Assembly (NCBI GenBank): GCA_011033025.1
Contig: WFMF01000077.1
Location: forward strand, 537,443-601,442
DNA: 64,000 nucleotides
Source of the DNA: Beroe forskalii
Lineage: Eukaryota > Ctenophora > Nuda > Beroida > Beroidae
Reading direction: 5' to 3'
The translations under genes and the position numbers were made by a program. The notes under the pieces are model-generated. The model was given only the letters and a program-made list of their open reading frames with translations. It was not told the DNA's origin and made no database searches. The stretch's first letter is position 1, and each line of letters begins with the position of its first letter. Below, one piece after another: positions 31,082 through 53,207 of this stretch.

Positions 31082-31130
31082 ATGAACCCACTGTGGCCTG
31101 TAGTCCTTCTCCTACTTTGCTTGGGAAATG
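31082..31130 (+). CDS. Ig/CCP receptor exon 1: signal peptide
   Basis: ATG then MNPLWPVVLLLLCLGN, a short hydrophobic leader, ending in phase 1 at a strong donor (gtgagt). Placement just upstream of the first Ig exon and the phase match make it the likely start. Cleavage is expected shortly after Gly/Asn or within the start of exon 2. Confidence 0.75.
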
Positions 31131-34100
31131 GTGAGTTTTTGAACCAGTTTTAAATACTTAAAAAGAGTGCAAACCACGGAACACGTCAGTCTGCAAACTG
31201 CATAATGTCATGTTTGGACCGTGGCCGAACGTTGTTCAAGGTTTGCTCTTTTTTCGAGTTATCTTTCAAACGTATACACCAACTCAATGTCAATTTCGAA
31301 CGCAAGGAAATACCAATCGTTTCTTGGTATTGTTTACTGAGGCCCTGTGCCATAGAGTATTTTTATCTTCGAACAAAGGTACAAAGGTGCTGTTATCTGA
31401 CCAGTGACCAATCTGTTTCTTCATAGTTTGCCAGCAAGAAATAAATTCAGAAACCCAATAACCAATCCAATTTTTTTATTGAAATTTATTCATTCGTATG
31501 TGTTGCTGATGAATAATGAATATCCATTATCCATCTACATTTATTTGGCTGTAGAATCTCTCAAACCTCTACTCCTCCCAGTGACTGCACAGGCACCAAC
31601 GGTTAGTGGAACGCCCACAGTAGACAACATTTATACAAGGGATGAAACTATCGCACTTTCCTGCACTGTCGATTCCTCTGATTCCATGTATGCGTGGATA
31701 CGTAACGGCGAGTTTATCTACACTGATGCATCTAGCAAGGTGACAATGTATAGTACTAACACTTTGTCCTTACCGGCTCCAACGGAAACTGGGGTTGCTG
31801 ATTTGGTCTCTGCAAGCTACATTTGCGCAGTGAAAACTTCGACGAATGAAATTAAATTGTCCACTGTTGCCGAGATCAAAGTTGCAGGTTAGTTATGGTT
31901 ATGTTATTATCTACCACAGGAGACAAATTTGAGGTGACGAACTCAAAATTCAAAAATTTCCAATTGGAGGTTTACTTTTGAGGAGATTGAGGGGTCCCCC
32001 GAGATAATATTACAACTGTCACGAAGGGGTTTTTAGTTTGGAGGGAGTTTAAGGGGTTTATTTCCCCAGTTTGAAATGAGATGTGTTTAAAAAGCGGGTT
32101 TTATCCCATAAATGAACGTAAGCCAGTTTCGAATTATGATTCATATCTCATGAACAACTTATCATTTGTGTTAATATATTGTATAGGGGGGGGCAACGCT
32201 CTTTTAGGCCCCGAGGATATTGAAAATCCGAAAAGAGCCCTAGAAAGTGGGGCCTAAAAGAGCCTAAAAGGGCCTTTGGGGTAAAAATATTAGACTTGGT
32301 GGGCTCTGTTGCCTTAATAACGTCTTGAAACAATTATAATTTATTCAAATATCATTCAATCACTTAATTGTTGGGTTACTTGCATTTAAGAGGAAAAAAT
32401 TGATCAAATTTTTTTAGGGCTCTAGAGGATAACAGTGACCTGAAAGAGCCCTAGAAAATGGGGACCTTAAGAGCCCTTTAAACAGTTTCCCACAGTTTTC
32501 TAGGATCATTAGCCATAGTGTCCTCAAATTATACTGGATTGTTGAAATACTGTTGCTTCATTGAAGAAATCACTATATAAATGGCATTTTGACTGAATGG
32601 GGCTATGCTATCGATCATTAGAACAATTTTAGTCTAGGGCTCTTTTAGGCTCCAAAGGATATAAATAATCTGAAAAGAGCCCTAGAAAGTGGGGCCTAAA
32701 AGAGCCTAAAAGCGCGTTGCCCCCCCCCCCCCTGTATATATACATAGATAAATAATTCGTTCTTTACCTGACTTATCGCAGATGTCCGCATCACGGGATA
32801 CACTGGTCCTTACGGTGGCAGCAATACCGCCCCCAATACTCTCACCCTGACATGCAGTACTGATGTTTACGAGGGAGAAACTGTCGCCAATACCAAATGG
32901 TATAAAAATGGCGGTGAAACTTTTGATGACGTGGAACAACTTGATTCTTGCAGCAATTTAAAAGAGTCCACTATCGTCATTTCGGAGACCACTTACTCTG
33001 ATAATGCCAATTACGCGTGCGGAGGAGTGTCACTTGGAACAAGTGGAACGACTGTTTCTTCGGAAACTCTCGAATTTATCAGTCGTGATGTCTCAACTAC
33101 CGATAAGAGTACCAACTCATTGGGAGGTGAGGTAAAGCTGACTTGTGAGGTGTATGGTGATGAGGCACAAACCATTACGTGGACAAATGCGGATAATGAG
33201 GATGTAACTACCAAAGGGATGAGTGTCGCCAAAGGTACCTTCGCTGCACACTATCAAGACGCAGTATTGACTGTTACAAATGTTCGAGAAGCTGCGGATT
33301 TCACTTGCACTGCCGTCTGGAGTACCGGGTCACCTGCAACTCCCATTGCTTCTGTTGCAAGCGTGAAAATTTATAGTAAGTAAATCATCTGTGATTTTCA
33401 AATGATGTATGTTGTGGGTGGTTGAGTTGGGTCGGTGCTTTGAATGGGTGGAATATGTTTAAAAATTCAGTTTTGGATGTTTGAATGATTGGGGTTGGAA
33501 TGGATGGAATGATTGAATAATTGGGGTTTGTATATGGGTGAATGTTTGAATGATTGTCCTTCCGTCTATGTAACACTCTTGTCCCCGTATAACATGAATT
33601 GCAACTGACGGCACAATTCTTGCTTGTCCGTGTTTGCCGTATGTAGGCGCTTAATTTCCTTCCTCCGCTTTCCTTCCTCCGCTTTCCTTCCTCCGCTTTC
33701 CTTTCTCCGCTTTCCTTTCTCCGCTTTCCTTCCTCCGCTTTCCTTCCTCCGCTTTCCTTCCTCCGCTTTCCTTCCTCCGCTTTCCTTCCTCCGCTTTCCC
33801 TCCTCTGCTTTCCTTCCTCCGCTTTCCTTCCTCCGCTTTCCTTTCTCCGCTTTCCCTCCTCCGCTTTCCCTCCTCCGCTTTCCTTCCTCCGCTTTCCTTT
33901 CTCCGCTTTCCTTCCTCCGCGGTGCTTGATGTTATCTCAATTTCCCTCCTCCGCGGTGCTTGGTGTTGACTTTAAGCTTTAAAGGGCCGGATTACAAAAC
34001 CGACATTTGGCCCTTGGTGCTCTTTAGGGCTGTATGATACAATTGTAAGTTTGCCCTTAGGTGGATTTGGTAATACCGATTTTTGAGAAATTTTAAGGTC

Positions 34101-37100
34101 GACCTAACCCGCTCAGGAGCACCTTAAAAACGCCTTAAAGGAGCTCATTGGGTTATACGGAATTTTAAGGTGGACCTTAAACTGCAGTTTGGGCCGTTTT
34201 AAGGAGCACCTAGGGCTAAAAGGTCGATCTTAACCTGTTGTGTAATCCCATAAATATTGCTCCGACGCTGAGTGTGACCACCAGCAACACGCATTGACAC
34301 GTGCTATTTAAAGGTTCTTGGGTGCGCATTCTTTCCAAGTTGTTGGTCTCAGTTCGTCTGTTCCCGCAATTTTGCTGAATTTCCACGTTTCGCATCAGAT
34401 CGTCTTTTTCTTCAAGAATGTTTATACTTGACGATGAAGCTCCATTAAGCTTCATATCACTTATGCACGTTGCCACATTATCAGCTGTGCACTTTTCTTG
34501 TCATCCAGTTATAAGCTGAGTAATCATCAAGAATTTGAAAGGAGTGATCCATGCACTTTCCACATTCCAGAACTTACAGTACTTGTATTGTAAACCTAGA
34601 CTTGCAATACAGACATCCTATTTCTCACCCTCCCAAAACCACGATTTCTGCAAACCCTCTTCAATGCCTTATTGTAAGACAAAAAGTTGTTGGGGAGGGA
34701 ATGATACTCGTGAATTTGTGCAGCACTTGTGATGTGCGTCTGTGTTACCCCCTGTCTGTGTTACCCTCCTGTCTGTGTTACCAACCTGTCTGTGTTACCC
34801 TCCTGTCTGTGTTACCCCCTGTCTGTGTTACCCACCTGTCTGTGTTACCAACTTGTCTGTGTTACCCACCTGTCTGTGTTACCCCCTGTCTGTGTTACCC
34901 ACCTGTCTGTGTTACCAACCTGCCCGGTGGTAAAGTTGCTTGGGTGGTTGCCAATCCTGGTTTTGGGCAAAACAACTTGGTTGCATGGCTGTCATGAGCA
35001 AGTGAGCCCAATAACATAATGAATTTTAATGCTGGTATAACAGTACACCGTATCAGGGGCTATGTACTTGGCACTTGCAGTGTGTGGACTTGTGGATGAC
35101 AATTAAATTTTGCTTGTTTTTTACATTTTACCAAATATTTGTTAACAAATAACAATTAATTATCACGGTACAATTGGCACAGTGGTTAAACATTATCATG
35201 TCGTAAATTTTAAAAGTTTACGTCTGCCTGCCGCAATGTTTTGTAAATGCTTCAGCATCCAGCAATCCACGAATTATAATTCGATTTTCATAGTCCCTCT
35301 CTCCGGCTCTCCTCACTTTGAAACACGAATCGTGGCTAACGCGTGATCTAGCTTTCATTTCCTTTGATGTTGTACGAGGTGGTTGCCAATAACTCAATTT
35401 ACATCTCAGGATAGCTATCCTGCTCTAGGATACCTATCCTGAGTGGAAGTAGGAGGTTGTGCAACCTAACGTTAAAGTAACAAATAAATTCCATGCAACG
35501 TGAAGTGGGTCTGTAGTGGCAAGGAAGTTGATTGAGTCACGTATATTGAGTACACTGTACCAGTGAGGGTAATGATACGGATGATAAATAATTATGAGGG
35601 ATATTATGTGGTGTGTATTTTTGGGGAGAAAGGAATGCTGCTGGAGAGAGCCACTGCTCCCAGCTCCAGTGCTCAAATGACAAGTGATGTGTTATGAATG
35701 AATTCACGGAGCAAATTAGCACTAGATAAATAACAGATAAATTTGAACTTTTTGTGGAGATTTTTCGAATTTGTTGCATTGTTGACCAAAAGTTGTTGCC
35801 CAACTAGGATATCAGGATAGGTTACTTTTTACCACCGGGCCAACCTGTCTGTGTTACCAAAATGTCTGTGTTACCCTCCTGTCTGTGTTACCCTCCTGTC
35901 TGTGTTACCCCCTGTCTGTGTTACTCTCCTGTCTGTGTTACCCTCCTGTCTGTGTTACCCCCTGTCTGTGTTACCCTCCTGTCTGTGTTACCCTCCTGTC
36001 TGTGTTACCATACTGTCTGTGTTACCCACCTGTCTGTGTTACCCTCCTGTCTGTGCTAACCCCCTGTCTGTGTTACCCTACTGTCTGTGTTACCCTCCTG
36101 TCTGTGTTACCCTCCTGTCTGTGTTACCAACCTGCCTGTGTTACCCCTGCCTGCGTTACCCTCCTGTCTGTGTTACCCCCTGCCTGTGTTACCCTCCTGT
36201 CTGTGTTACCCTCCTGTCTGTGTTACCCTCCTGTCTGTGCTAACCCCTGTCTGTGCTAACCCCCTGTCTGTGTTACCCTCCTGTCTGTGCTAACCCCCTG
36301 TCTGTGTTACCCTCTTGTCTGTGTTACCCTCCTGTCTGTGCTAACCCCCTGTCTGTGTTACCATCATGTCTGTGTTACCATCCTGTCTGTGTTACCCCCT
36401 GCCGGCGTTACCCTCCTGTCTGTGTTACCCTCCTGTCTGTGTTACCCTCCTGTCTGTGTTACCCCCTGCCGGCGTTACCCTCCTGTCTGTGTTACCCTCC
36501 TGTCTGTGTTACCCTCCTGTCTGTGCTAACCCCCTGTCTGCGTTACCCTCCTGTCTGTGTTACCCTCCTGTCTGTGTTACCCTCCTGTCTGTGCTAACCC
36601 CCTGTCTGCGTTACCCTCCTGTCTGTGTTACCATCCTATTCGTGTTGCTATAACCCTTTTGTTACTTCAGGTGTATCTGGACTATCTTTAACAAATACAG
36701 TTGAAACTCCTGTGGATGATACTGCTTCCATTCCGCTTTCGTGTGTTTTCACCGCAGCTTCTGATGTGCAATCAGTCGATTTCTATGTGGATACTAGCAG
36801 TACCGCCGTTGCAAGTTCCACAGCAGACACGACCAGTATAACGAAGGAGGCTGATAAATCGGGGGTGTACTCCTGCGTAGTGACCTACACAGATAGTACA
36901 TCGCTAACAGGAACAGACACGAGAAAGCTGTATTTTCGTGAAACAGTCGCGCACGATGCTGCTGTGACAGCGGGGAGCACAGCGACTTTATCGTGCGAAT
37001 TCCACGGCGATGAAACAAATACTATCGACTGGAAAAAAAGTGGAGCTGTGCTGGATAATAGTGACGCAGGAGTTACCGTAGACGAAGGGTCGTATGCTTC

Positions 37101-40100
37101 CTTCGTCAGGACCACCACAATCGAGATAGACACATCTGCAAGACCTTCCCCAGGATCGTACACTTGTGAGGCGGAATACAGGGATACCGCCACCGCAGCT
37201 TCGGGGACTGCCAACCTTTATATCTATGAAATCAGTGAGTTTATTACGTCGGATTGCTAAAATCTCGTTATGTCCCTAAAATTTGTTCAATGCCTCGAAG
37301 TTCATGTAATTACAAGCCGAGTTGTATCAGGTAACGTACTTTGACGATTACATTACCACGGCTGAAAACTCTATTGACCCCATTTTCTTCTATTTAAACC
37401 ATTATCTTACTTATAAACATGTAAACAACTTATCTAATTTATCTTAGTTTCAACATAAAATAACATTCACCATGCCAGTAGAGATTAATGTTTTGGTTAC
37501 ACCGTGAAAGACATTGAGTTACTGATAAGATATAACATCTTTTCTTCATTTTCTCAAAAACACATGAGGAAAAGCCACATGACACAAATGATGGACAAAA
37601 CTGTACATTTAGTTTCTGGTCCATCATGAAATTAAATAAACTAGTAAAATCGTGCGTTACGTGTTCTTATCACATAGCAATTTAACTTGTAAAAATTGGT
37701 GCAATAGCATATTTAACGCATGAATTTCTCTCAGCATCGTTTGTAACTTCGAAAGAGACAGCTGTGGAATCAGACAGGCTTGTGATAACTTGTACAGTGA
37801 CCCAACTGCAGAGTGGAGTAACACTAAATGTAGGCATGTAAGTATTAAAATACCCACTGACATGTAAACTACTTATTTAATCCTAAACAACTATAGACCT
37901 TCAAGTATTAAAATAACTATTAAACTAACTAGTGGTCTGTAAGTATTAAACTAAATATTGGGTCAGGGTTATGGTCACCTAATCCGTTATCGTAAAGGTG
38001 ACCGGTTAAATAAATAAGGTCAAATGAAAATTTATGACTTATACAGTGTTATTGAACTAAATAGTGCCATCAGCCATGTACAATTCACCTTATCGGACCT
38101 TGTGAGCTGATACGCTTATAACTTATTAAGTAATGGTTGTTCACAAATTTCAGATACCAGGGTGACAACGACGAAGCAGTTTCGAGTACGACGTCCACTA
38201 GTACGACCAGTCCGGTGACACTCCAGTATGATATCAATTCTGCTTCTGCCACGGATAACGGAGTTTACACCTGCAAGGTATGGTGACTTGATGAGGGGAG
38301 GCAGCCACAGGATGATAAGCCTCCTACAATATCGTCTTTATGATATCATCAGCATGCATATTCTTAACTGCATACTTTGATATAGTCCCCATATAGTACT
38401 TTTGAGGCTCAAACTTGCCACAGAAATCATTCTGTGGATTCGGCTTAACTTCGCTTCCGCACTCTAAATTATTAAAATTTCTCCAGCTGCCACGCAGTCG
38501 ATGTTAAAGTGGTATATAGATCCCTGCTCTGATTGGCATTTATGATCTATTTAACCGGCCCTTAAGGAGTCAAAAACAGCTTTGAGATTTTTTTTCAAGC
38601 GTTCAGGCGGTGGGGGGGTTCAAGCCAAATTTTTTGAAAAACACGTTTCTGATATCATGGTTGACCCAAAAGGTACACCCCGTGGGCCAACTTTTTGGCC
38701 GGGTTTGGTACCCCCAGACCCCTGACCCACTGGCGCCGCCGTGGCGCCGGCGCCAAAATTTGGTGCATTTTTTTTCAAAAACGACTTGTGTGGGGTCCAA
38801 TAACTCGGCCATTTTTGAGATATCGACTTCAAATTTTTATGGTAACTCAGGGGACCATTATCTATCGATTGCACGCCTACCAAACCCGGCCAAAAAGTTG
38901 GCCCACGGGGTGTACCTTTTAGGTTGACCATTATCCCAGAAACGTTATTTCCAAAAAATTGGCTTGGAACTCCCCCCCTTAATCGGCTTATACAGTGTTA
39001 AATTCACTCGAACGTAATTACATAACACGTGATTATGACCTAAATGACTAAATCATCATATAAGACCAGGAGTTGGTCTGTTAGACCCAAAAACGTATCC
39101 CAAGTAATATGATAAGTTTTTTTATATTGGCCATTTCAGAGCATAAAATCCATAATATGACAATCAAAAGAAATTGTTTTTCAAGGGGGCCGGTTAAATG
39201 GTTCAAAATGATTCATTTTTTGTCCATAGGGCGGCTAAATAGAGGCCAATAAGGTACCTTATCGTAACATAATTATCACGGACGTTAATTTCACGCTGAG
39301 CACCTCAACGTGAATATTAATGTCCGTGAAAAACTTTTCCGTGATACTCATGTCCGTGATTTTCAGATCCGGGAAATTTAAGTCCGGTACTTTCTCTTAA
39401 AATTTCTAGGGTAGAGACGCTAAAATTTTGACTTCATGTCTTTGAAATTTAAATGCACAAATAATAAAAATTTTAAGGAAATTATACTTCTTTTTCATGC
39501 TTAATACGGATATTTATTATGAAAAAAAATATGAAAAAATCTTCAATTCAAGTATTATTATCGTGGAACAAAATGCTAGAATGGGAAAAATCGAGCCAAA
39601 AATTTCGAATTTTATGTTGAAATTTGAAGTGGCAGGATCAAGCGTGAATATCAATGTCCGTGAAATTTTAGGTCCGTGAAACTAAAGTCCGTGATAATTA
39701 GCCTCACACCTACACATATGAAATAGCATCAAAATGTTTCAATACATTCTCGGAATTTGACGATATCAGATATCTGTCACGAGGAGAAAACTATAATAGC
39801 AATATTTTCTTAGGCATCATTCACCCCAACGACAGCCGTATCGGGACCTGAGCTGTCAGAAGAAATCAACCAGTACGTGAGAATGGCCACGGTCCCAGCG
39901 AGCACCGTGTACGTTATAGCCGATCAGACTGCCGTAATCCAATGTACATTCTACGGCGACGATGTGTTCGATACTGTCACCTGGACCAAGGACGGATCTG
40001 CAGTCGGCGGTTCGGTAACACTCGCCTCTCAACCTTACTCCACGGACACGTTCAGCCGGACGCACACTGCCACCATTGCCGGGTTTACCGACTCTGACGA

Positions 40101-43100: not shown

Positions 43101-46100
43101 TTGCAAAGACGAAGTGGATAGTGAAACAGTTACAAATGCCGCTTCAACTGCTGACTTTGCTGTAACTCTTGACTTCTTTGGACCTAAAAGATATTTCTGT
43201 GGTGTAGTTTACTCGGATTATGGAACTAAAGAAAGCAGCAAACTGCAAGTTAATGACCATCCTAAGCTTGGCCAGGTAGCGCAGTGGTTAGGGTATCATA
43301 CTTTCAATCGAGAGGTTGGTGGTTCGAATCCCGCGGCCGTACCTATCGTGCTAAGGCTGAAAACTCTCACCTAAGCAGTGAATAAATTATGGATTATACT
43401 TCCTTACTCGCCACTGGCTTGATTACACTTGAATCCTTCGATTCCTGTCATTGGCTGTTAAAGCTGTTGGAATAGAAGTAAAATCTTCAAAAAAGAATCG
43501 TACGTACCACAGATTCTTTCGAGTCTTTTCAAAACTTTGGAATGGGAATATAATCGACACACTTCATCAGCTTGAAGTTGCAATGCGCGCTGCTCATTTC
43601 ATTATATGAATTACGAATACTATAGGCCTCTTGTTTCCCTATGAGATGTAACCTCGGATTCTTTTTTCAAGTCAACGTTCGAGGTATCGACGTTGTTTAT
43701 ACAACATCGCCTGTCAGTTACTTTGCCGGAGAGTCATTGACATTGACCTGTAAATTTTATGGTGATGCATCTACATTTGGAAGTTGGACATATAATGGCG
43801 CTGATTTGTCGACGGATGCTACGGGCGCCTATGCCATTGACACTCAGGCATATGACCCTTCATCTTACAACCTGAAGTCAACTCTGACAATATCCGTTGG
43901 CATGAGTCCTTCGTTTAGTAAGCCATTCATTTGCAGTGCTACATACGATGCAGATTCTAGTCCTGTGACCAAAGAACAAACTCTTGCCCTGAAAAGTAAG
44001 TAAAAAATGCAATTTTTAGCGAACTTAGGCACATAGAAGTAGCATTTATTGTTGTTGGCATTTTTCGTTGCCATTTTCGGGCATTGTAAGTTAAACTCTC
44101 AGTAGTACAATCAACAATGCCATTGCAGGTATTTCTATTCGATCCACTGCCAGTGCTAACAAGGTAAACTCTGGAGTTTCTTTCAAGCTGGTATGCACTT
44201 TCACCCGGAATGGCCCCGCCGGCGTCCCCGCCATCCGATGGCTGAAAGACGGAGTGGATCTGACTGATAACGCTGACTACAGCAAGACGAATTGTGGTTG
44301 GTTCGGAGTCCTCCGATGTCTGACAGTGGTGTCCAGTAAATCAACGGGCGATAAATCAGGATTGTACACATGTGAGGCAACGTACCCCGACAACCGTGTG
44401 GGTTCCGCGAGTTTGATTCAATACGTTCAGCAGTTGAAGACTAATCCTGAGTACGTGTATGCGGCTACCGGGAGTACCGCCACTCTGACCTGTGAGGTGT
44501 ATGGGACCTTGGAACAGACGGTAACTTGGACTCACGAGGATGATGGAGTAATCCTTGACACGAACACGGACTACGAGATTGTGACGGGAATTGGAAGCAA
44601 CTTCAGAAGAATTGATGAGCTGGTAGTTAAATCTGTTAACGTTAACACTGGTGTAGATTATACTGTTGCTCTTGGAGTTGGGGTCGAGCCGCTTGTCTCA
44701 CGTTAGTTCCATCAATAGTTTAATGATTTTAAATGCAGCCGGTAGTGATGTTTCAAGTTTTTCTAACATGATTTTAGGTATATCAATTGATAATAAGACA
44801 ATATTTACTATCCGAGCTGATACAATGAGCTTTTTTCTGCCTTCTAACACATGTTAAACTTTCTACCGTGTAGTTTTTCTCCAAATTATTTACAATAACT
44901 ATACCACAGCTGATATAGTTGGGCAGCCGAGTTCGGCCTACGCAAAGGCCGGTGAAGAAACTGCTACCATGACTTGTTCAAGCACTCTTACTAATGTCGA
45001 TCAATCATCGCCTAATTTCAAATGGTATTTCGACGTCTATGGTTATATACCCGATGGTGATGTGACCAGTTCACGCAGTGAGTATTTTTCCCTCTTCAAT
45101 CGCGTTTTTGTAAAACAAAATCACGGTGAAAACGGTTGATTTTGTATAGAACACGTTGATTACTTTATACTCCAGAGTTCAGACACCGCATTTAAAGGGT
45201 GGGGGTTCAGGCCTGGAAATTAGGAAACACTATTTTGGGATAAGAGTTGTACAGGTCAAGTACCAACATCTCTCTTAGTTTGATGTATTTATGTATGTTG
45301 TTCACTTTTTCAGGTCAATACAAGCTTCAAGCTGCAAATACAAACTCATGTGACGATTACTACTCTTCTATCGAATTAGCTCAAACGTGCAGTTTAGCCG
45401 CCACAGAATTCAACATTCCGTACTCAACTGCAATCAACGACGCTACTCTACCTTACGGATGCATTCTATACAATTCAGAACTAGTAATGAACACGGCGAC
45501 GGACAACGCTGCCTCGCCATCGGCTCAACTTGTTTGTCTCACGAAAGGTGACTAAATATTTGATCTTGTAAAATCCCATTCTCTAGATTGTGTTTTTACG
45601 TCGTAACGTCTTTCGTCCTTTATAAACACATTTTAGGGTTCCCACTAGCAGTATGGTGATCCGTAACTTTCAATCTTATTGGATTTGTTTGATGCGGTAA
45701 AAAGAATTCATTCAATTTGAATTGTAGTGTTCAACATTTGCAGACGAGGTGCTGCGTAGCAGTGCCGAGTGAGCTGTGTATTCGCAGGCCCAAGGGGCCT
45801 GCTAGTCACTTATAATCCCTGGTAAGACATTCATTCGAGCAGGCTATGTGTACACCAGCGTTCTTACCATCAAGTACATTGACGACTCAGTGGTGACATT
45901 GGACTACCACTGCGTGTTTGTGATGACTACTAGCGGTCTTGAGAACTTCGCGTCAAATAGTGCAATCTTCTATCGTCTAGGTAACTTGTTTTCTCTCTAT
46001 CTCTCAAGAGTTTCATTGCAAACTGCTCTTATAAACTTCCTTCGAGTACCTTATGATATAATATTATTGGCCTCGAGAAACCTTTACAATTGTAGGTGGC

Positions 46101-49100
46101 CACTTGGACGAAATTTTTTCAAGTGGTTGTCAGATCAAGGATTTTATGCTCTGAAATAACCAATGAAACCAAGTTTTAATACTTTTAGTAGAATTGAGAC
46201 CCAAATCCCGGTCTGAAATCACGATTTAGGTCATGAAGACGTTCAAGTAAATTAAACAATGAATAAGCCAAGTAATAGAAATTTCATTTACCTAAATAAA
46301 TTGGGCTTTAATTTGGGGATTTTTCAGAAAAATCCCCATTTTATCAACCACCATGAAATTTCGAAATGACGTCATTATCATATGTTAGCAAGAGTAATAA
46401 CTTTTAAAATCCCCATATTTTCAACTTACTTACCAAAATTTGAAACACCGAAATTTTATCCCACATAAATACACCTCCTAAGGTAGTCCAACTTTTACCC
46501 ACCCATTGGATAAAAGTCTCAAACTTGTTTTTTCCATTATTTCTTTCTTAAGAGAAGTTAAAAATGGTCCAATTTAAAAGCATATCAGATGACAGATCAA
46601 CATCGTGGCATCGGGCACTTCATTGAACAATGCAACGTTTCATTGTTTTAGCATCTTTCATCAAACGCTTTCAAAAATCATGTTCCGAAAAAAATTAAAG
46701 TTGTAAATCGAAATCTTATTTCGTCACAGGATTACTCAAAGACGGCATTGAAGTTCTTGGATACCCAGGAGAGTATGTCGAGAGCACACAAGGAATGTCT
46801 ATTAGTGGGAGTTCCGCCTTTTCAGAAGAGTACACCGTCCAATTTTCTGTAAGAATATATTTTTGGGATTTTATGCGTTCTCAGCGTTACGCACAAGATG
46901 AGTCGCGTGTTTCAGCAGTTATTTCACTTGTCCCTTTGTTAAACACGTGTTCCTGTGTTCCCCACAATTGTGCACAATCTCCGCAATGTAAAGTATTATA
47001 CCTTGAACCTAGCCTAAATTACTTTAGCCTTGACTCTAAAACATTGGCTCCCTCCCTAACCACCAACTTAAATAACTGTACCCTTTAACCATCCTCGTAC
47101 CCTTATTTCTACACTAACTGATACCCTTGCCTTTTCCTAGTTACCGGCAATTGTTCCAATTCTGTACCTTAATAACGCAGCTTGCAGGCAACTGAAAGGC
47201 GTGTCCCCAGGTGATAGTGGGTCCGGGTATAAGGAGCACGGAGCTGAAGTTCACTGACAAAGTTACTGGGAGCGAGGAAGTCGTCCCAACGGTGGCTGGA
47301 AACACAGTCGATAGCGTGAGAACGTACACTTACCAACCAACATATGATAACCGTAAAACTGGGACTTTTGACTTCAAGGTTATCTACGAAACAGCCAGTG
47401 CTGAGGAAGTTGAGGAGACTCTATTTGTACCGGTTTATGGTACGTTCTTTCGGTAACCTTTCCAACTTAAGCATTCTGACTGATTCTGAGAAAATGGATT
47501 TAATTCCAGCAAAAATTACGGGCGTGAATAGAAAGATAATTAATACTTGAATTGCATGATTTTACTGCATTCTTCTCTGTCATTCGAGGGTTAATTTTTC
47601 TTATCTTTGTAGAGTTCTGTGACAAGAGGCAGCTGCCGAGTTATTCAAATGGACGCATTGCTGACTTGGCTCAACCAGCTGTGAGCTTCCTCCAATACGC
47701 TATGCTCGAGTGTGACATGGGATACGTGGCCGTGGGGGTCAAGGTAACTCAGTGTGGCTTCGGAACCGACTTCATAGAGCCACCTACATCCGATAACGCT
47801 AAGTGTTTAGCTGAGTTCAAAAGTAAGTTTGGATCATGTTTGATGTTTCTAAGTTGTGTGGATCATGTGACATTTCACCATGTACTTATTTAGTGATGAT
47901 CATGTCACAAGGTAGTGTGGACCATGTCACTATATGTAGTGATGATCATGTCACAAGGTAGTGTGGACCATGTCACTATATGTAGTGATGATCATGTCAC
48001 TAGGTAGGTACATTTACCATTGTGATTGTGTCACAATCGCATGTAAGACGTTAGTTCAGTGAAAATCAGATCCGTGCTCTTGAATTCTTGAATCAACTTA
48101 TTCGAGTCTGTTTTTCAGAACATGAATTTATTAATCTATGAGGTTTAATAATTTCTACCGACAGAAAGTTAACCATTTCATTTAGTTATGCATGATATTG
48201 ATTTCACACACTTTCTAGCTGAGAGGGAGATGCCTTGTGGACGGCTACCTGACATTGTCGGTGGCTACCCCAAATATTCCCTGGACGGCATGTCTGCTTC
48301 CTACGTCTGTAACGACATCGGGCACCGCATCGTTGCTGTTGACGCGGTGAGTCGAGCGCACTGAAACTGTGAAAGATGCTTGGCAGTTTTAAACCTGCCA
48401 ATTGACATCGCTTAGAGAATTATATTTCATTATCAAATATAAATTGTTCTGTATATTTAATTTATACTAATTTATACTATTAATTTATACCAAACACAAC
48501 CAAAGTGACATCACTTTACTTTTGTAATGTTTATTTTGGCCCACTCAATATTATTGCTAGACGCCGACAAGGCTCACGTGTCACTTCATGATTGTAATGG
48601 CAGAATATTCACAGAACGACTACGGGTGTGACCCTGACACGTTGACTTGGAGCTTCTTCACTCCAACTAACGCTGCAGTTATACCCCCGTATTGTGCAGG
48701 TATGTACAGAACCGAATGAGATTCCTGATTTTGTCAGCATTCATTATAAGCCATTTGGGGTGTCACAACTGCCTTCACTTAAGTGATGTCTATCTGTACT
48801 ATTATCTATACGGTATCACTTTGCTCCTGCACTTCAGTTTTCATTACTGTTGCTTTCAAGGAGTGATCGATAGGGGTTGATGATTATAATTGATAGTTAA
48901 TGTTGAATGTTGATAGAAAATTTCTTCTACACTTGGAGGAAGGGCTGGATCTCTCGCAGGTCCATTCCTTTTACTGTTTTAGTAGTAGATAGAACAGTTG
49001 AAATCTTTCAAACAACGCGATAGTTTTATTGCTTAAATAAACTTTGTTGGTGACTATGCTGGTCGTGTTATTCGTCATCCTACAAAATGAATTTCTTAAT

Positions 49101-52100
49101 GAAATTCGTTTATTTATTGAGGCACCCTAATCAGTAAATAATAAATTATGAATAGTACTTTTATTTATAACAATGCCATCATTTAATGATTAATGAAGCT
49201 CAATTAGACTGATTTTCACTGAACTCTCTTACCTTAGTGAGTAAATTCCTTGATTTCAGCGAGGGGTGATTTCACTTCGCAACAGTTGATTGTCAACCTG
49301 ATATACCCATCAACGTTCGAGTACTGTAATAATCAAGCGAGCGAGGATGCGGATATGAAAAGGGCAGTAGAGTCCAGTCTGATCAGCAACAAGTTGTCCG
49401 AGTGCCTCTATATGGAGCAGTGTACCACCACCTCAGCCTGCTCGTGGGACTCCAGCGACAATACCATTCTCTTTACCCTGATACTCAGCAGATACTCGGC
49501 AGATTCTGACGGCGGTCTCCTCGCTCGTGATGCAAGTCGTATTGGAAGCAGCTCCGTACCGGTGGAAATAAATAACCCTAATAACAAGCGGGCAGTGGAG
49601 ACACTGTCAAACGTCGTGGGGGACACAACTACTACCGTCAATATCAACTGCCCCGCGACGGCACTGGCTGAAGACGGCACATGTACTACATGTGGGTTAG
49701 GGTTCGGGAAGAAGCCCCTGGAAAGTGTTTGCTCAGTGTGTCCTAAGGGAACATACAGTGATGTCGACGATGTGACTTCTGCTTGCAGTGCGTGTCCTGG
49801 GGGCAAAACAACTCCAGGTGTTGGGTCCAAGTCAAGCTCGGATTGCAGGTCTCTAGATCAGTTCTGCAAAGTCCCTGCTGCCACCCTTCAGACTCAGCTC
49901 ATACCCACATCGGGTTCTGATGTGTTTTATAACTCCAACATTCGCGTGGTTTGCAGTCCTGGGTACGCTTTGGAGGAAAATTCTCCTGACGTCTTCCCCT
50001 GCTCTGACGAGGCAGTCGCTCCTATTTGCTACCGTGAGTATTTGCCTATTTGCTACCTTGAGTTATTGCCTGTTTGCTAACAGGAGAAGAATAGAATATC
50101 AATAGAAAGAATTCTCTTTAATTTCCAATTCTTAAGATACCTATATCCCAGGAAAGTGCGACGTATCCATGTTTGATACTGACATGATGGATGAACTGAA
50201 CTACGCTCCTATCCTTACTATAGGTTTGACCTATTCGTCTTACCAGTATTTACGATAATATTTGATAATTTGGACTGAACTTTGAGCTGAAATTCGCAAA
50301 TCAGTGAGTAACTAGGCTCATTCTAAAAATGTACTTTTCAGTTTTTAGAATACTTAGGGATCGTTCACATATTACGTAATCAATTTTTTGGCATTTTTTA
50401 CCCCCCCTCCCCCCTCTCCGTAATCAAACGTAATCATGGCCAAACCCTCCCTCTTTTTCAGAAAATATTACGTAATCATGGCCCAACCCCCCCCCCTCCT
50501 TCAGTTTTTTTGACGTCACCAAAAAACTATATTAACTAACAAAAAATTAGAACAGTATCGTGTGTTTCAATTCAATCATCAACATCATCAACCTGAAGGT
50601 GACATTCAAAGCTTCTTTGAGTTTTTCCTACGGAAATCTCGCCTACGACAACTCCTCTGACAATGAGATGGACACCTCCTCCTCTTTCTCTCCTCCAACA
50701 AATCCTCATCTGCTCATCATCCTCCTTTACCTCCAACAGATCATCATCCTCCTCCTCTACACCTGAGGCCCCCAGTTCCACTAAAGAGCCAGGAATCAAC
50801 GTCTTGGTCCCACCTCAACCTCCTTCAAAACCGATAGAACCCAAGTTCAGTATCCATGTCTGGCTCATCTGCCACCAACGCTGACAGAACCCATGATCCA
50901 GATCAGCCCTAGACCCTAAGTGCCAGATCAGGGCTGTTAACTTCACAGACAACTGCAGCTTCCTACACCTTCATCAAAAAGATTTATTCCTGGATAATAG
51001 AGCTGCGGATGTACACCAAGACCTGCTCTGGCATCAACTCTATAGCTCTAGGGAAAGAATGGCCTCCGAACCTCTGATCAAGCACAGAGCAGCAAACCTT
51101 ATATACAAAGAGGCACTGAAGTGGTTCGGAACGAATGGAGTACATCCCTCCTATATGGGCAGCACTAAAGGAACTATACATTCTGAACCATATTGAGTTA
51201 GAGTAGATCATATCTTAATCATAATTATGAAATTTTGACAATTTTTTCTGCAAATGGTTAATTTTTGGTAATAAAAATTCGGAAATCCTTTAAATTTTCA
51301 TAAAAAATTCTTGAAATTTTCATGAAAATTCTTGAAATTTTCATGAAAATTCTTGAAATTTTTATGAAAATTCTTGAAATTTTCATGAAAATTCTTGAAA
51401 TTTTCATGAAAATCCTTGAAATTTTCATGAAAATTTAGATATTTTGATTACGTAATCATTGGCCAAACCCCCTCCCCCCTCGTAATCAAACGTTATCATT
51501 TGGAAACCCCCTCCCCCCTCGGTTGATTACGTAATATGTGAACGATCCCTTAACATTATTATGTATGATTGTACGTTAAATTTCGCATCTCAAATGAAGA
51601 TTGCAAGTCAGAAACTACATTTTATTTATTCAAAAGTACGTTTCTGTCTCTAATGTACATTTTACACCCAAATTTACATTTATAAATAATCTATAATTAC
51701 ATTATTACATTTATAATCTTCTAATGTACAATCTGCTACTTGCCAGGATCCTACTTGCGACATGACCAGCACATCAACTTGACGTGCAGTGAAGGATATG
51801 AGTCAGCTGATAAGCGAAGCTACGATGTGTTCCGATGCGTGGGTAACAAGGGTCCTGATGATGCTGTGATGGACATCAGCCCCTGTACTGGTCAGTATAC
51901 TGCTGAATGATAATCATATTCACAATAAAACACATACTATTGGCTTACCTAGTTTGCATTTCAGCAAGTTATATTTTGTAAGGTCAACTGATATTTTCCA
52001 CCGTTTGACACTTAAATTACAAAGGGGGATCACCGTCCGTTTTGTCTGCAAATTTACAAAAATATCAAAAACGGGCACGGATAAAACGAGAACCCCCCCC

Positions 52101-53207
52101 ATATGTACATGTGCTATATCAATTATACCATTCCAACGTGACATATCACAGATATTCCACCCAACGCGGCTCTGATTGTTGGTCTCGTACTGGGCTTCCT
52201 TATCATCATCTTGGTGCTGGTGCTCCTGTGGTGCATGCTGAAGGGCAACAGAAAGCAAGAACAACAGAGGTGAGCACTCGTACCTGTTGTTACGCAATGT
52301 TTATTTCTCCTTGTAAGGTAAAGCCTGAAGTATTTACTGAATATTGAGAAGCGTATGTCTGTGCAGCTGATTTAGTGATTTACACCCGGTTGGCGTTTTT
52401 TAATGACGTGATTGATAAAGACGCGCACATATATGTGCCTCAATATGAATTCTATTGAAATAACAGCAAAAAAGCGCGTCTTTATCAACCCAAATCTTGA
52501 TCAGCGACCTCGTCGGATTGCATTAAATTCCTCAATCATTCGACAAACTAACCAATTGAACCTGGTACGCGACATAGAGCAGTTCAACGTGATTAACTAA
52601 CTTCAAATACTTAGCGCCTCTAATGGCTCTGACGTCATTCGAGTTATCTAAATTTTAGTTGTATTTTTTTATGTTTAAAATTGGTCAATTCAACATAATA
52701 ACAGTGAGAATGCGCCCGAAGATGAATTGGGCTCTGGACTTGGCATGGACGGTAAAATTATTTCCTGCAATATTCTATCGATGATTGAAGCTTATTACCT
52801 ATCATCCAAATCATGAAAAGCGATGTTTTTCACCGCCCTTACACATTTCTCAGAAATTATATCTGGAAGCAATGAATCATGATGTCATGTTGAATAATCC
52901 TATCATGCAGTATTCTTTTTCCATATTGAAAATTCCGAGTACTTCGAAGCACTTTTTGGTTCCCTTGTTGTCAAGGTGTAGGTTTGATTCTTTACGAGCA
53001 ATGAATTTCGGACATATTTTGGTTCTTTGGTGATTAAAGTAATCAAAATTATGATACTCTCTTAATTTTGATTTGGTCATATTCATAAGTGTTTTGATGA
53101 TTATTTGATGTAACTCTGTAAAAATTTCAGGAGGGAAATCCGAACCGAGCAATCAGCCTCAACAAAGTTATAGTCTTCGAGATGTCATTAGAATTCCGTC
53201 CTTTTAG
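31082..53207 (+). CDS. Giant Ig/CCP/GCC2-GCC3 membrane receptor, 26 exons
   Basis: Joining 26 GT-AG exons gives a type I membrane protein of about 2,560 residues. Order: signal peptide (1-16); Ig1 (17-127); nine Ig dyads, Ig2-Ig19 (about 128-1989), each an A-type domain then a B-type domain with a C-x-F/V-Y/H-G-D-like motif; two CCP-like domains (about 1990-2148); a linker and a GCC2/GCC3 module (about 2149-2350); two CCP domains (about 2351-2478); one membrane helix (about 2485-2507); and a ~50-residue tail without a clear ITIM. Phases match at every junction except exon 10/11, where a SINE follows the donor. Ig and CCP domains are extracellular recognition modules in general, so a surface recognition, adhesion or immune role is inferred. 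I recognise no named orthologue. Oddities: a foreign Cys-rich exon inside Ig18; Ig17 lacks its second Cys; Ig19 lacks both. It could alternatively be a secreted or decoy form if the membrane exons are skipped. Confidence 0.85.
31555..31887 (+). CDS. Ig/CCP receptor exon 2: Ig1
   Basis: Acceptor 'ggctgtag', donor 'gttagt', phase 1-1, 111 codons. Cysteines in ALSCTV and YICAVK and the Trp in YAWIRNGE mark a compact Ig fold. It is the only Ig domain without a B-type partner. Confidence 0.8.
31888..32781. other. Intron 2, containing a MITE
   Basis: Mostly occupied by an inverted-repeat element (32186-32732); see the separate entry. Confidence 0.7.
32186..32732. mobile_element. MITE with GGGGGGCAACGC ends and TGTATA duplication
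   Basis: The left end (G8)CAACGC-CTTTTAGGC is mirrored by GCCTAAAAG-GCGTTG(C13). The flanks TGTATA at 32180-32185 and 32733-32738 look like a target duplication. Two copies of 'gaaaagagccctagaaagtg' lie inside, next to each end. Confidence 0.7.
32782..33375 (+). CDS. Ig/CCP receptor exon 3: dyad Ig2-Ig3
   Basis: Acceptor 'cttatcgcag', donor 'gtaagt', phase 1-1, 198 codons. Ig2 (A type): TLTCSTD, W in TKWYKNGG, NYACGG. Ig3 (B type): KLTCEVYGDEAQ, W in TITWTN, DFTCTAVW. The second Cys-containing strand of each domain is preserved. Confidence 0.88.
33654..33920. repeat. 14-bp polypyrimidine minisatellite (ctttccttcctccg)
   Basis: About 19 copies with C/T variants. The coding-like strand is almost pure pyrimidine apart from one G per unit. 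The long frame over it (33624-33929) is a 14-residue period artefact. Confidence 0.9.
34736..34922. repeat. 17-bp minisatellite (ctgtctgtgttaccctc), left part
   Basis: About 11 copies. It continues at 35840-36650 after the hAT-like insertion, so both parts were one array. Confidence 0.9.
34923..35839. mobile_element. Non-autonomous hAT-like element (917 bp)
   Basis: The ends CCCGGTGGTAAA and TTTACCACCGGG form a 12-bp terminal inverted repeat. They are flanked by identical 8-bp sequences CCAACCTG (34915-34922 and 35840-35847), the duplication length typical of hAT transposons. Inserted within the 17-bp minisatellite. No transposase frame; internal frames are short. Since CCAACC also occurs in normal array units, part of the flank match could be coincidental. 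Confidence 0.8.
35840..36650. repeat. 17-bp minisatellite (ctgtctgtgttaccctc), right part
   Basis: About 45 copies with variants 'tgtgctaacc', 'tgcctgtg' and 'gccggcg'. 17 is not a multiple of three, so all three frames stay open and produce spurious 80-130-codon ORFs. The 3' end reaches within about 20 bases of exon 4's acceptor. Confidence 0.9.
36671..37234 (+). CDS. Ig/CCP receptor exon 4: dyad Ig4-Ig5
   Basis: Acceptor 'gttacttcag', donor 'gtgagt', phase 1-1, 188 codons. Ig4: PLSCVFTA ... GVYSCVVTY. Ig5 (B): TLSCEFHGDETNTIDW ... GSYTCEAEY. Confidence 0.88.
37735..37837 (+). CDS. Ig/CCP receptor exon 5: Ig6, first half
   Basis: Acceptor 'tttctctcag', donor 'gtaagt', phase 1 to 2, 34 codons including VITCTVTQLQSG. 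Short, but it matches the next exon in phase and domain logic. The gene otherwise has one exon per dyad; this dyad is split over exons 5-7. Confidence 0.75.
38154..38277 (+). CDS. Ig/CCP receptor exon 6: Ig6, second half
   Basis: Acceptor 'aaatttcag', donor 'gtatgg', phase 2 to 0. Contains a Ser/Thr-rich loop (AVSSTTSTSTTS) and the F strand NGVYTCK. The second Cys lies one codon before the donor. Confidence 0.75.
38604..38984. mobile_element. MITE with ~75-bp inverted arms
   Basis: Left arm landmarks 'caagccaaattttttg', 'ggttgaccc' and 'ggtacaccccgtgggcc' are mirrored on the right ('ggcccacggggtgtacc', 'ggttgacc', 'ccaaaaaattggcttgg'). G/C runs close both ends. The four frames of 70-105 codons here arise from the inverted arms and are not genes. 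Confidence 0.8.
39268..39700. mobile_element. MITE with TAATTATCACGGAC ends and TCCGTGA subrepeats
   Basis: Terminal inverted repeats extend about 25 bp (taattatcacggac.tta.tttcacg). Subterminal 'gtccgtga' is repeated at least eight times in both halves, as in hAT or Harbinger elements whose transposase binds subterminal motifs. Confidence 0.75.
39814..40177 (+). CDS. Ig/CCP receptor exon 7: Ig7 (B type)
   Basis: Acceptor 'attttcttag', donor 'gtcagt', phase 0 to 1. VIQCTFYGDDVFDTVTW ... GSYTCSS. Completes the Ig6-Ig7 dyad begun in exon 5. Confidence 0.82.
40444..41040 (+). CDS. Ig/CCP receptor exon 8: dyad Ig8-Ig9
   Basis: Acceptor 'cattccccag', donor 'gttagt', phase 1-1, 199 codons. Ig8: NLSCVFGAYSG, W in RVMWTKD, GVYRCTVYF. 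Ig9 (B): VITCTFYGSQ, W in SQSWNK, GVYECVGSF. Confidence 0.88.
41277..42449 (+). CDS. Ig/CCP receptor exon 9: two dyads, Ig10-Ig13
   Basis: Acceptor 'acttctcag', donor 'gtgagt', phase 1-1, 391 codons, the largest exon. Ig10 TFKCSFEAF/EWGCTIR; Ig11 (B) DIQCHFYGDPTG/GTYTCSG; Ig12 TFTCIVVDG/AVTCGVEY; Ig13 (B) TLTCKVHGDSPKSVEW/QVACKATY. Two dyads without an intron suggest a lost intron or a duplication that missed it. Confidence 0.9.
42968..43248 (+). CDS. Ig/CCP receptor exon 10: Ig14, donor in doubt
   Basis: Acceptor 'ttgtttcag', entry phase 1. SFTCTFSAG ... RYFCGVVY is a good A-type Ig domain with extra Cys in DCNICKD. The expected end is at 43248 (CTGCAA|gttaat), which would be phase 0, whereas exon 11 needs phase 1; this is the only mismatch in the gene. 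A SINE begins at about 43270. A phase-1 donor (G|gtggtt after 43318) exists inside the SINE and would add about 23 SINE-derived residues. Otherwise a one-base error or mutation must be assumed. Confidence 0.65.
43270..43480 (+). mobile_element. tRNA-derived SINE in intron 10
   Basis: The head has a polymerase III A box (TAGCGCAGTGG, about 43277) and B box (GGTTCGAATCC, about 43321). The rest continues 'tatggattata', 'cgccactggcttgatta' and 'ttcgattcctgtcattgg', shared with 28105-28195. Acceptor and T stems do not pair well, so it is not a functional tRNA gene. It sits in the gene's sense direction directly downstream of exon 10. Confidence 0.82.
43672..43995 (+). CDS. Ig/CCP receptor exon 11: Ig15 (B type)
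   Basis: Acceptor 'cttttttcaag', donor 'gtaagt', phase 1-1, 108 codons. TLTCKFYGDASTFGSW ... PFICSATY. It is the B partner of Ig14, in a separate exon. Confidence 0.82.
44129..44701 (+). CDS. Ig/CCP receptor exon 12: dyad Ig16-Ig17
   Basis: Acceptor 'ccattgcag', donor 'gttagt', phase 1-1, 191 codons. Ig16: KLVCTFTRNG, W in IRWLKDG, GLYTCEATY. Ig17 (B): TLTCEVYGTLEQTVTW, but the F strand reads DYTVALG instead of YTC, so the second Cys is Val. The frame and the phase-1 donor remain intact, which argues against a plain frameshift. Confidence 0.8.
44910..45077 (+). CDS. Ig/CCP receptor exon 13: Ig18, first half
   Basis: Acceptor 'ataccacag', donor 'gtgagt', phase 1-1, 56 codons. TMTCSST and W in FKWYFDVYG give strands A to C of an A-type Ig domain. 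The rest of the fold is in exon 15, not exon 14. Confidence 0.78.
45314..45547 (+). CDS. Ig/CCP receptor exon 14: Cys-rich cassette inside Ig18
   Basis: Acceptor 'ctttttcag', donor 'gtgact', phase 1-1, 78 codons. Contains Cys at NSCDD, AQTCSLAA, PYGCILYN and LVCLTK, with the pattern C-x(n)-C-x2-A-x(n)-P-x-GC-x(n)-N-x(n)-S-x(n)-C. It resembles a small Cys-rich module common in algal and marine-invertebrate proteins, from memory only, and is not Ig. Skipping it leaves the frame intact and rejoins Ig18, so it may be alternatively spliced. Confidence 0.72.
45843..45980 (+). CDS. Ig/CCP receptor exon 15: Ig18, second half
   Basis: Acceptor 'cgagcag', donor 'gtaact', phase 1-1, 46 codons. YTSVLTIKYIDD and LDYHCVFVM are strands E and F with the second Cys that pairs with exon 13. 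Confidence 0.75.
46730..46848 (+). CDS. Ig/CCP receptor exon 16: degenerate Ig19, first part
   Basis: Acceptor 'cgtcacag', donor 'gtaaga', phase 1 to 0, 39 codons. LLKDGIEVLGYPG through EEYTVQFS. The B-strand Cys is replaced by Phe. This weak domain is supported mainly by matching phase. Confidence 0.6.
47211..47439 (+). CDS. Ig/CCP receptor exon 17: degenerate Ig19, second part
   Basis: Acceptor 'gtccccag', donor 'gtacgt', phase 0 to 1. VRTYTYQPTYDNRKTGTFDFKVIYE aligns with E-F-G strands but has Phe for the second Cys (TFDFK). A disulphide-free Ig-like spacer before the CCP domains. Confidence 0.65.
47613..47822 (+). CDS. Ig/CCP receptor exon 18: CCP-like domain 1
   Basis: Acceptor 'tctttgtag', donor 'gtaagt', phase 1-1, 70 codons. 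Four Cys (FCDKRQL, LECDMGY, TQCGFG, AKCLAE) in sushi spacing, with Tyr in the expected position. The usual Trp between Cys3 and Cys4 is missing. Confidence 0.78.
47903..48010. repeat. 46-bp tandem repeat in intron 18
   Basis: Two full copies and a part of a unit running 'atgtcacaaggtagtgtgga', 'ccatgtcactatatgtagtg', 'atgatc'. The first copy starts with more diverged text near 47840. Confidence 0.85.
48219..48346 (+). CDS. Ig/CCP receptor exon 19: CCP-like domain 2, first half
   Basis: Acceptor 'ctttctag', donor 'gtgagt', phase 1 to 0, 42 codons. MPCGRLPDIVGGYPKY and SYVCND. Confidence 0.75.
48561..48699 (+). CDS. Ig/CCP receptor exon 20: CCP-like domain 2, second half
   Basis: Acceptor 'attgctag', donor 'gtatgt', phase 0 to 1, 46 codons. 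RLTCHF, YGCDPDTLTW and PPYCA; the TW before the last Cys is sushi-like. One extra Cys compared with a standard CCP. Confidence 0.72.
49260..50033 (+). CDS. Ig/CCP receptor exon 21: linker, GCC2/GCC3 and CCP3
   Basis: Acceptor 'tgatttcag', donor 'gtgagt', phase 1-1, 258 codons. The first ~130 residues (FEYCNNQ, LSECLYMEQC) are an unassigned globular or stalk region. Then NCPATALAEDGTCTTC, CSVCPKGTYSDVDD and CSACPGGKTTPGVGS form a clear GCC2/GCC3 (ephrin-receptor-like) module. The exon ends with CCP3 (FCKVPAA, VVCSPGYAL, FPCSD, PICY). Confidence 0.88.
50152..50223 (+). CDS. Ig/CCP receptor exon 22: CCP4, first part
   Basis: Acceptor 'atatcccag', weak donor (ATAG|gtttga), phase 1-1, 24 codons, KCDVSMFDTDMMDELNYAP. 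The first Cys of CCP4; the remainder follows 1.5 kb later. Confidence 0.65.
50357..51549. mobile_element. Harbinger-like non-autonomous element, 1.2 kb
   Basis: Inverted ends GGGATCGTTCACATATTACG / complement, flanked by TTA on both sides (50354-50356 and 51550-51552), the duplication typical of PIF/Harbinger. Subterminal 'gattacgtaat' motifs recur near both ends. The interior (50537-51230) is less AT-rich, with codable Pro/Ser- and Leu-rich text, possibly captured sequence, then a 21-bp tandem repeat. A shorter relative lies at 53963-54413. Confidence 0.82.
51285..51435. repeat. 21-bp tandem repeat (aaattttcatgaaaattcttg)
   Basis: About seven copies inside the Harbinger-like element. Each unit contains the near-palindrome 'aattttcatgaaaatt'. 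Confidence 0.85.
51747..51890 (+). CDS. Ig/CCP receptor exon 23: CCP4, main part
   Basis: Acceptor 'cttgccag', donor 'gtcagt', phase 1-1, 48 codons. NLTCSEGYES, FRCVGNKG and ISPCT give Cys2-Cys4 of a CCP completed by exon 22. Confidence 0.82.
52152..52269 (+). CDS. Ig/CCP receptor exon 24: transmembrane helix
   Basis: Acceptor 'tatcacag', donor 'gtgagc', phase 1 to 2. ALIVGLVLGFLIIILVLVLL is a single membrane span followed by a basic stop-transfer (KGNRK), fixing the N-out orientation. Hidden in the ORF list because it is short. Confidence 0.88.
52705..52751 (+). CDS. Ig/CCP receptor exon 25: cytoplasmic tail
   Basis: Acceptor 'ataacag', donor 'gtaaaa', phase 2 to 1. SENAPEDELGSGLGMD, acidic. 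Small, but both phases match. Confidence 0.7.
53131..53207 (+). CDS. Ig/CCP receptor exon 26: tail end and stop
   Basis: Acceptor 'aatttcag', phase 1 entry, TAG at 53205-53207. GKSEPSNQPQQSYSLRDV followed by IRIPSF. One Tyr, but not in an ITIM, ITAM or YxxPhi pattern, so any signalling would need a partner. Confidence 0.78.

Follow-up and report, generated by a model that had tools for sequence, protein, structure and literature searches.

Analysis of a 64,000-nucleotide stretch of the genome of the ctenophore Beroe forskalii (the window; contig WFMF01000077.1, positions 537,443 to 601,442 of the forward strand, assembly GCA_011033025.1) revealed what is, judged from its sequence, a real, very large gene. 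In the predicted protein a leader is followed by Ig dyads, CCP-like units, a domain that we call X, one GCC2/GCC3-like module, further CCP-like units, a membrane helix and a short tail. We consider it fairly probable that this is a type I receptor in which an Ig rod is carried on a stalk with a candidate convertase site, that it serves recognition or adhesion, and that its locus has been changed by duplication and conversion. As a mosaic Ig receptor of giant size that is duplicated in tandem and has a membrane-proximal module of its own, it offers a concrete candidate for cell recognition in such animals. Sequence features of the genome agree with a ctenophore origin. Mitochondrial COX1 lies on a contig of 13,339 bases; the 2,844 bases analysed have 20% GC and yielded no tRNA in a search under a bacterial-code setting, and TGA within the frame together with AGA at conserved Arg positions fits genetic code 4 but neither 5 nor 13. 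Two glutamate-receptor frames have as their first PDB matches entries of the Mnemiopsis iGluR ML032222a, followed by 4zdm, a kainate-like receptor of Pleurobrachia.

Gene structure

The gene was rebuilt as 26 phase-compatible exons at 31082-53207 of the plus strand, coding for 2,564 aa; GT-AG borders are present in 25 of 25 introns, 19 of which are in phase 1, four in phase 0 and two in phase 2. A preceding sequence-only reading had joined 26 exons by phase into about 2,560 residues, a structure borne out by the model, its splice borders and the paralog described below, with close agreement in length; it had overlooked that the gene has a tandem copy and belongs to a family, as well as exon 14, domain X, the Lys-Arg pair and the abrupt switches in identity to the paralog. 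The model was obtained by a small dynamic programming procedure with generic splice-site weights and with codon use taken from clear frames of the locus and the neighbouring GPCR. These training frames include the window gene itself, so the model is partly dependent on it and comparison with the paralog is the stronger test. The first pass picked the start at 31082 unaided from the ATGs within 1.5 kb; in the second pass this start and the stop at 53207 were fixed, and exons 25-26 were set by splice-site reading. Three exon borders were shifted after comparison with the paralog, the first version having had 2,585 aa. The features of the gene, with the evidence for each, are as follows.

31082..31130, plus strand: exon 1, ATG and hydrophobic leader (predicted signal peptide); leader and pre-ATG bases alike in paralog, hydropathy
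31582..31887, plus strand: exon 2, Ig 1; weak Ig_2/Ig_3 matches, paralog counterpart with dN/dS 0.39
32782..33375, plus strand: exon 3, Ig 2-3, dyad A+B; Pfam, paralog
36671..37234, plus strand: exon 4, Ig 4-5, dyad; Pfam, paralog
37735..37837, plus strand: exon 5, Ig 6 first part; with exon 6 and the start of exon 7 matches Ig_2 (1.7e-6), paralog
38154..38277, plus strand: exon 6, Ig 6 second part; same joint Ig_2 match (1.7e-6), paralog
39814..40177, plus strand: exon 7, Ig 7, B type; Pfam, paralog
40444..41040, plus strand: exon 8, Ig 8-9, dyad; Pfam, AlphaFold dyad model
41277..42449, plus strand: exon 9, Ig 10-13, two dyads in a single exon; Pfam, paralog 85% aa, database protein 39% over 97%
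42968..43248, plus strand: exon 10, Ig 14 (A); paralog, donor placed where conservation ends
43626..43995, plus strand: exon 11, Ig 15 (B); paralog, conservation from 43668-43672, start possibly 43672
44129..44701, plus strand: exon 12, Ig 16-17 dyad, B without second Cys; Pfam, paralog frameshifted in B
44910..45077, plus strand: exon 13, Ig 18 first half; paralog, Ig_3 match when joined to exon 15
45314..45547, plus strand: exon 14, 78-aa non-Ig cysteine domain, phase 1-1, candidate cassette; paralog, no Pfam match
45843..45980, plus strand: exon 15, Ig 18 second half; paralog, Ig_3 match when joined to exon 13
46730..46848, plus strand: exon 16, degenerate Ig-like 'Ig 19' first part; paralog, no Pfam Ig match
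47211..47439, plus strand: exon 17, 'Ig 19' second part; paralog, no Pfam Ig match
47613..47822, plus strand: exon 18, CCP-like 1; weak Sushi 17.2 bits, paralog 91% aa
48219..48346, plus strand: exon 19, CCP-like 2 first part; paralog 90.5% aa, no Pfam match
48561..48699, plus strand: exon 20, CCP-like 2 second part; paralog, in part
49260..50033, plus strand: exon 21, domain X, dibasic site, GCC2/GCC3-like module and CCP 3; Pfam Ephrin_rec_like and Sushi
49268..49579, plus strand: domain X (exon 21); similarity in paralog, C296, C374 and C669
49586..49591, plus strand: Lys-Arg, candidate proprotein-convertase site (exon 21); pair at 8/8 places reached by similarity
49649..49846, plus strand: GCC2/GCC3-like (Ephrin_rec_like) module (exon 21); Pfam
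49865..50029, plus strand: CCP 3 (exon 21); Sushi over cut-off
50152..50223, plus strand: exon 22, CCP-like 4 first part; paralog up to 50213
51747..51890, plus strand: exon 23, CCP-like 4 second part; paralog 97.9% aa, no Pfam match
52152..52269, plus strand: exon 24, membrane helix (52169-52240) and tail start; hydropathy, paralog dN/dS 0.08
52705..52751, plus strand: exon 25, tail; phase and splice sites only, no paralog similarity found
53131..53207, plus strand: exon 26, tail and stop; paralog similarity 53126-53176

At intron 10 (43249-43671) the conserved acceptor is one base out of phase with the conserved donor in both paralogs, and a short sequence is repeated at both ends of the intron (CAAGT in the window, CTGCAAGT in the paralog). 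Candidate readings of this pattern are a recently gained or non-canonical intron, or a microexon missed by the model. The same intron holds a repeat element (43375-43507) with ~82% resemblance to another stretch of the upstream paralog region.

Domain architecture

A Pfam search of the whole protein, run on the first model version (2,585 aa), recovered Ig, Sushi and Ephrin_rec_like domains, the types expected from the sequence-only reading. Ig_3 matched the two halves of the protein at 4.5e-66 and 2.2e-20, the single Ephrin_rec_like match (32.6 bits) fell where that reading had placed its one GCC2/GCC3 module, and the sole Sushi match over the cut-off was CCP 3 (24.4 bits). The type I topology, the alternating Ig dyads and the unusual order of modules that it had described are also supported, both by the paralog and by an intronless relative discussed below: the predicted signal peptide appears in the hydropathy profile as a hydrophobic leader with a similar start exon in the paralog, the membrane helix lies at 52169-52240 with the leader as the only other hydropathy peak above 1.6, and the tail is indeed short, at ~50 residues. 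The module counts held in part. Pfam gives many Ig matches, and about 18 Ig domains are retained of the 19 proposed: 'Ig 19' (exons 16-17) gives no Pfam Ig match, and Ig 18 gives one only in the absence of exon 14, with a score that stays under the curated cut-off. Among the four CCP units proposed, one is over the cut-off, one is weak (17.2 bits, exon 18) and two have no Pfam match; 'Ig 19' and these last two CCP-like units are assigned by cysteine pattern or position together with conservation in the paralog.

The Ig dyads consist of an A domain alternating with a B domain. In an alignment of ten dyads, of which the window supplies six and the paralog and C296 (a relative elsewhere in the genome) two each, five columns are invariant: both Cys in the A domain and, in the B domain, the Cys, Gly and Trp of its motif C-x2-[YHN]-G...W. 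An AlphaFold model derived from the six window dyads (pLDDT 71) is almost entirely composed of strands, and the 50 structure matches listed for it consist largely of IgSF receptors, titin, and antibodies or complexes containing them, with query TM-scores of 0.28-0.47.

One possibility, a narrower case of the receptor account given above and in our estimate a somewhat unlikely one, is that the protein is a developmental or neural adhesion molecule comparable to Dscam, Robo or DCC. Like those proteins it combines a long tandem Ig ectodomain with a single membrane helix, and its first 900 residues find their best PDB sequence matches in Dscam, titin, Robo and DCC; however, we would expect such matches from any long Ig protein, a judgement made without a control. 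Dscam carries FN3 domains after its Ig array, along with arrays of mutually exclusive Ig exons. FN3 would be expected in proteins of this kind, but neither half of the window protein has a Pfam fn3 match at E<=1; a further argument against this reading is the strong divergence of the outer Ig domains from one paralog to the other. No array of mutually exclusive Ig exons is seen in the gene model, in which the symmetric exon 14 is a single candidate cassette.

Exon 14 (phase 1-1) lies between the two halves of Ig 18, encoded by exons 13 and 15, and is 80.5% identical in protein between the window and the paralog. The domain that it encodes has no Pfam match, and a genome search at E<=0.01 returned two matches, both within this gene pair. 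Joining exons 13 and 15 without exon 14 yields an Ig_3 match of 2.5e-4 for the window and 2.4e-5 for the paralog, neither of which reaches the curated cut-off; when exon 14 is kept, the window copy gives no Ig match and the paralog gives Ig_3 at 0.022 and ig at 0.0062. Exon 14 would be either an insertion of a domain into Ig 18 or a cassette exon whose use controls the folding of Ig 18.

A membrane-proximal module shared by a gene family

Genome searches with the X-GCC exon of the window and with its C296 relative returned 11 and 10 matches respectively, the genes themselves included. Identity to the window exon is 71% in the upstream copy and 33% on C296. By eye, C296 encodes Ig dyads followed by CCP-like, X-GCC and further CCP-like units and a hydrophobic stretch; on C374 the X-GCC module is preceded by LamG-, EGF-, TSP1- and Ig-like frames that are perhaps separate genes. 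C783 (L045:2639-7456) holds one stop-to-stop frame of 1,606 codons, open without interruption, in which Pfam finds Ig, Sushi, Ephrin_rec_like and more Ig, with a C-terminal hydrophobic stretch visible by eye. Since an architecture of similar kind is present here in one frame, the Ig-CCP-GCC-membrane combination is independent of exon joining. It is possible that the C783 frame is a retrocopied or intron-poor relative.

These relatives also bear on whether at least two separate genes, an Ig gene and a CCP/GCC membrane gene, have been read as one. Such a boundary could be marked by an intron of 3.3 kb that contains tandem repeats and by the junctions of exons 10/11 and 12/13, which are weak, but the tandem paralog and C296 show the same order again, and C783 carries Ig, CCP, GCC and membrane helix in its uninterrupted frame, which makes a fusion of this kind very improbable.

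Domain X is matched in the window, the paralog, C296, C374 and C669, and doubtfully in C783. A SEA-like fold, considered for this domain, found no support (AlphaFold of exon 21 from a single sequence, pLDDT 33). Between X and the GCC module, a [K/R]-R pair occurs at the matching place in 8/8 places whose similarity reaches it: the window, the paralog, C296, C374, C669, C783 and two on C213, where the C296-based match starts at the pair. This count covers a set of loci from both X-GCC searches plus C783, leaving out L040 and L041, which are second copies of the window and the paralog; as homologs, the loci are not independent. A ninth place, at about 253 kb on C224, shows a comparable Lys-Lys-Arg within a match that is weak (E 0.002). 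At four other places (C224 near 282 kb, C669 near 167 kb, C310, C752) the match is confined to the GCC part or a repeat of it and is uninformative on the pair. In a pattern scan (ten rows) the pair stands 30-32 residues ahead of the GCC Cys pair, 40 in C783, and no pair is present in three other GCC rows of the scan (C847 twice, C752). Because the window protein has 7 such pairs in its 2,564 residues, one pair alone means little, and it is the shared place that counts. In the window and the paralog the site reads Asn-Lys-Arg, short of a full furin motif.

Two further loci deserve mention. C224:190000-283000 contains many Ig matches, a minimum count, some ~1.6 kb apart and followed by Ephrin_rec_like, and is perhaps another giant receptor locus. 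Frames on C847 (L046) show by eye a MAM domain, two Ig domains, several GCC2/GCC3-like repeats and a membrane helix.

Tandem copies and mosaic identity at the locus

The window ends at the contig end, and a tandem paralog lies upstream on the same contig at about 508.5-534.7 kb, ending 34 kb before the start of the window gene (568.5 kb). Similarity to it on the main diagonal covers 6,126/7,695 exon bases (80%) versus 575/14,431 intron bases (4%). Of the 34 similarity rows underlying these figures, 22 on the main diagonal were kept and merged to 21 intervals; the 12 dropped comprise three that lie upstream of the gene, four in which an exon matches the other copy of a repeated block, and five intronic rows matching elsewhere (repeat elements). 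Nucleotide similarity is found in 23/26 exons, being absent for exons 1, 2 and 25; counterparts of exons 1 and 2 are visible at the protein level.

Between the two genes dN/dS is 0.47 over 21 paired exons, exon 2 being paired over too short a stretch; the value of 0.47 with a bootstrap interval of 0.41-0.54 comes from 1,415 codons in 8 exons. Among the paired exons that have a value, all but exon 17 stay below 1; the 1.33 of exon 17 comes from 76 codons with very few changes (dS 0.029), and the highest whole-exon value with an interval is that of exon 3, 0.78 (0.55-1.14). Positive selection is not seen in this pairwise comparison. In the upstream copy a frameshift disrupts the second Ig of exon 12 and the acceptor of exon 13 is missing, and the gene family may therefore be partly decaying. 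That the window gene is itself a decaying pseudogene with intact-looking exons is extremely improbable: the B domain of its exon 12 has lost a Cys at the place where the upstream copy is frameshifted, as decay might produce, but the window model is open throughout, and constraint is apparent from the upper bound of 0.54 on dN/dS and from the value of 0.08 in the membrane exon.

Identity between the paralogs switches abruptly inside exons, from 62-75% to 92-100%. In exon 9 it is 67-75% over about 350 bases and then 92-100%, and in exon 21 it is 62-75% across X and 99-100% across GCC-CCP. Furthermore, the upstream copy contains the block of exons 4-7 twice; window exons 5 and 6 are nearer to block copy two and exon 7 to copy one, with exon 4 about equally near to both. 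This pattern fits conversion and unequal exchange, from which selection for diversity does not follow. The outer Ig domains are strongly divergent between the paralogs.

Functional considerations and comparison with known receptors

In light of the above, we propose that the signal peptide brings the protein into the secretory pathway, and that about 18 Ig domains, arranged mostly as A+B dyads in the sequence, would form an outer rod. The stalk predicted from the sequence (CCP-like units, X, one GCC2/GCC3-like module and further CCP-like units) would link this rod to the membrane helix and the short tail. A proprotein convertase may cleave at the Lys-Arg between X and GCC; the products would be an outer piece (Ig/CCP/X) and a piece left in the membrane (GCC/CCP), which could stay together or separate. 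The partner bound by the rod is most likely another protein of the cell surface or matrix, which would place the receptor in cell recognition or adhesion, and any signalling might be done by partners in the same membrane. The identity patterns suggest that tandem duplication, the copying of a block of four-Ig exons and patches of gene conversion have altered the locus.

A recognition or adhesion receptor is hence the most likely identity of the protein, with an immune role possible. The immune or recognition role advanced in the sequence-only reading had been drawn from domain type and stays putative; no ITIM/ITAM-like tyrosine motif was recognised by eye in the tail (the sole tail tyrosine lies in SYSLRD), and dN/dS values are mostly below 1. 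An immune or allorecognition receptor, again a narrower case of the receptor account, would use the rod to read non-self or microbial molecules and acquire new alleles by exchange between paralogs. The tandem copies, the copy-number difference in the four-Ig block, the mosaic identity and the Ig matches clustered at least at the places recovered elsewhere in the genome speak for it, as do the hundreds of I-set or V-set genes reported in ctenophores (PMC11797021). The tail and the prevailing constraint, exon 17 excepted, speak against it, and we regard it as rather unlikely.

A more specific scheme would see ctenophore-specific, two-part, convertase-processed receptors, built of X-Lys-Arg-GCC with exchangeable outer arrays, in which conversion and block copying create individual-specific variants and splicing of exon 14 switches one Ig domain on or off; this would make up a self/non-self system that arose independently on a possible sister branch of the other animals. 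We consider it decidedly improbable.

Domain shuffling is common in invertebrates, and the receptor appears to be an unusual combination of common modules, perhaps a lineage-specific one. Hydractinia Alr proteins are likewise type I membrane IgSF members encoded in a cluster that changes by duplication; unlike the window protein, they have few Ig-like domains and are not known to have a CCP/GCC stalk, and receptors of this type carry a tyrosine signalling motif in the tail. SVEP1 (Polydom) and SCUBE share CCP and/or GCC2/GCC3 (Ephrin_rec_like) modules with it, but they are secreted, are not known to have an Ig array and contain EGF, VWA, CUB or pentraxin modules, none of which gave a Pfam match at E<=1 in the window protein. 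Botryllus FuHC-tm is also a large invertebrate membrane protein with Ig domains that acts in self-recognition, and we know of no Ig dyad array with a CCP-X-GCC stalk in it. The length of FuHC-tm is given as 1,008 residues (PMC3691228). Ctenophore mosaic proteins are known in which C-type lectin domains are combined with Ig, EGF and CCP (PMC11797021); unlike the window protein, which has no Pfam match to a C-type lectin or SRCR domain at E<=1, these were picked by the presence of either domain, and the sections of that source considered here contain no description of an Ig-CCP-GCC receptor. In agreement with the sequence-only reading, no named family with this order was found in the titles and abstract openings of the literature searched.

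Searches of a protein database found no relatives of residues 2080-2500 of the joined protein among 5,334 candidates, nor of residues 300-720 of the C783 frame among 3,604. Exon 9 has at least one relative among 7,984 scored proteins (39% identity over 97%), which by eye diverges at the same exon border; the four-Ig unit is therefore not limited to the copies in the assembly.

Neighbourhood of the gene

Minisatellites with units mostly of 14-42 bases occur in the window at 2061-4244, 33655-33920, 34738-34922, 35844-36637 and 55496-56752, and the long open frames that some of them leave are probably not genes. Of six other reading frames of the window searched with Pfam, the only one matched was a single-exon rhodopsin-type GPCR at 18725-19711 (7tm_1, 1.9e-15), which lies between the two giant receptor genes.
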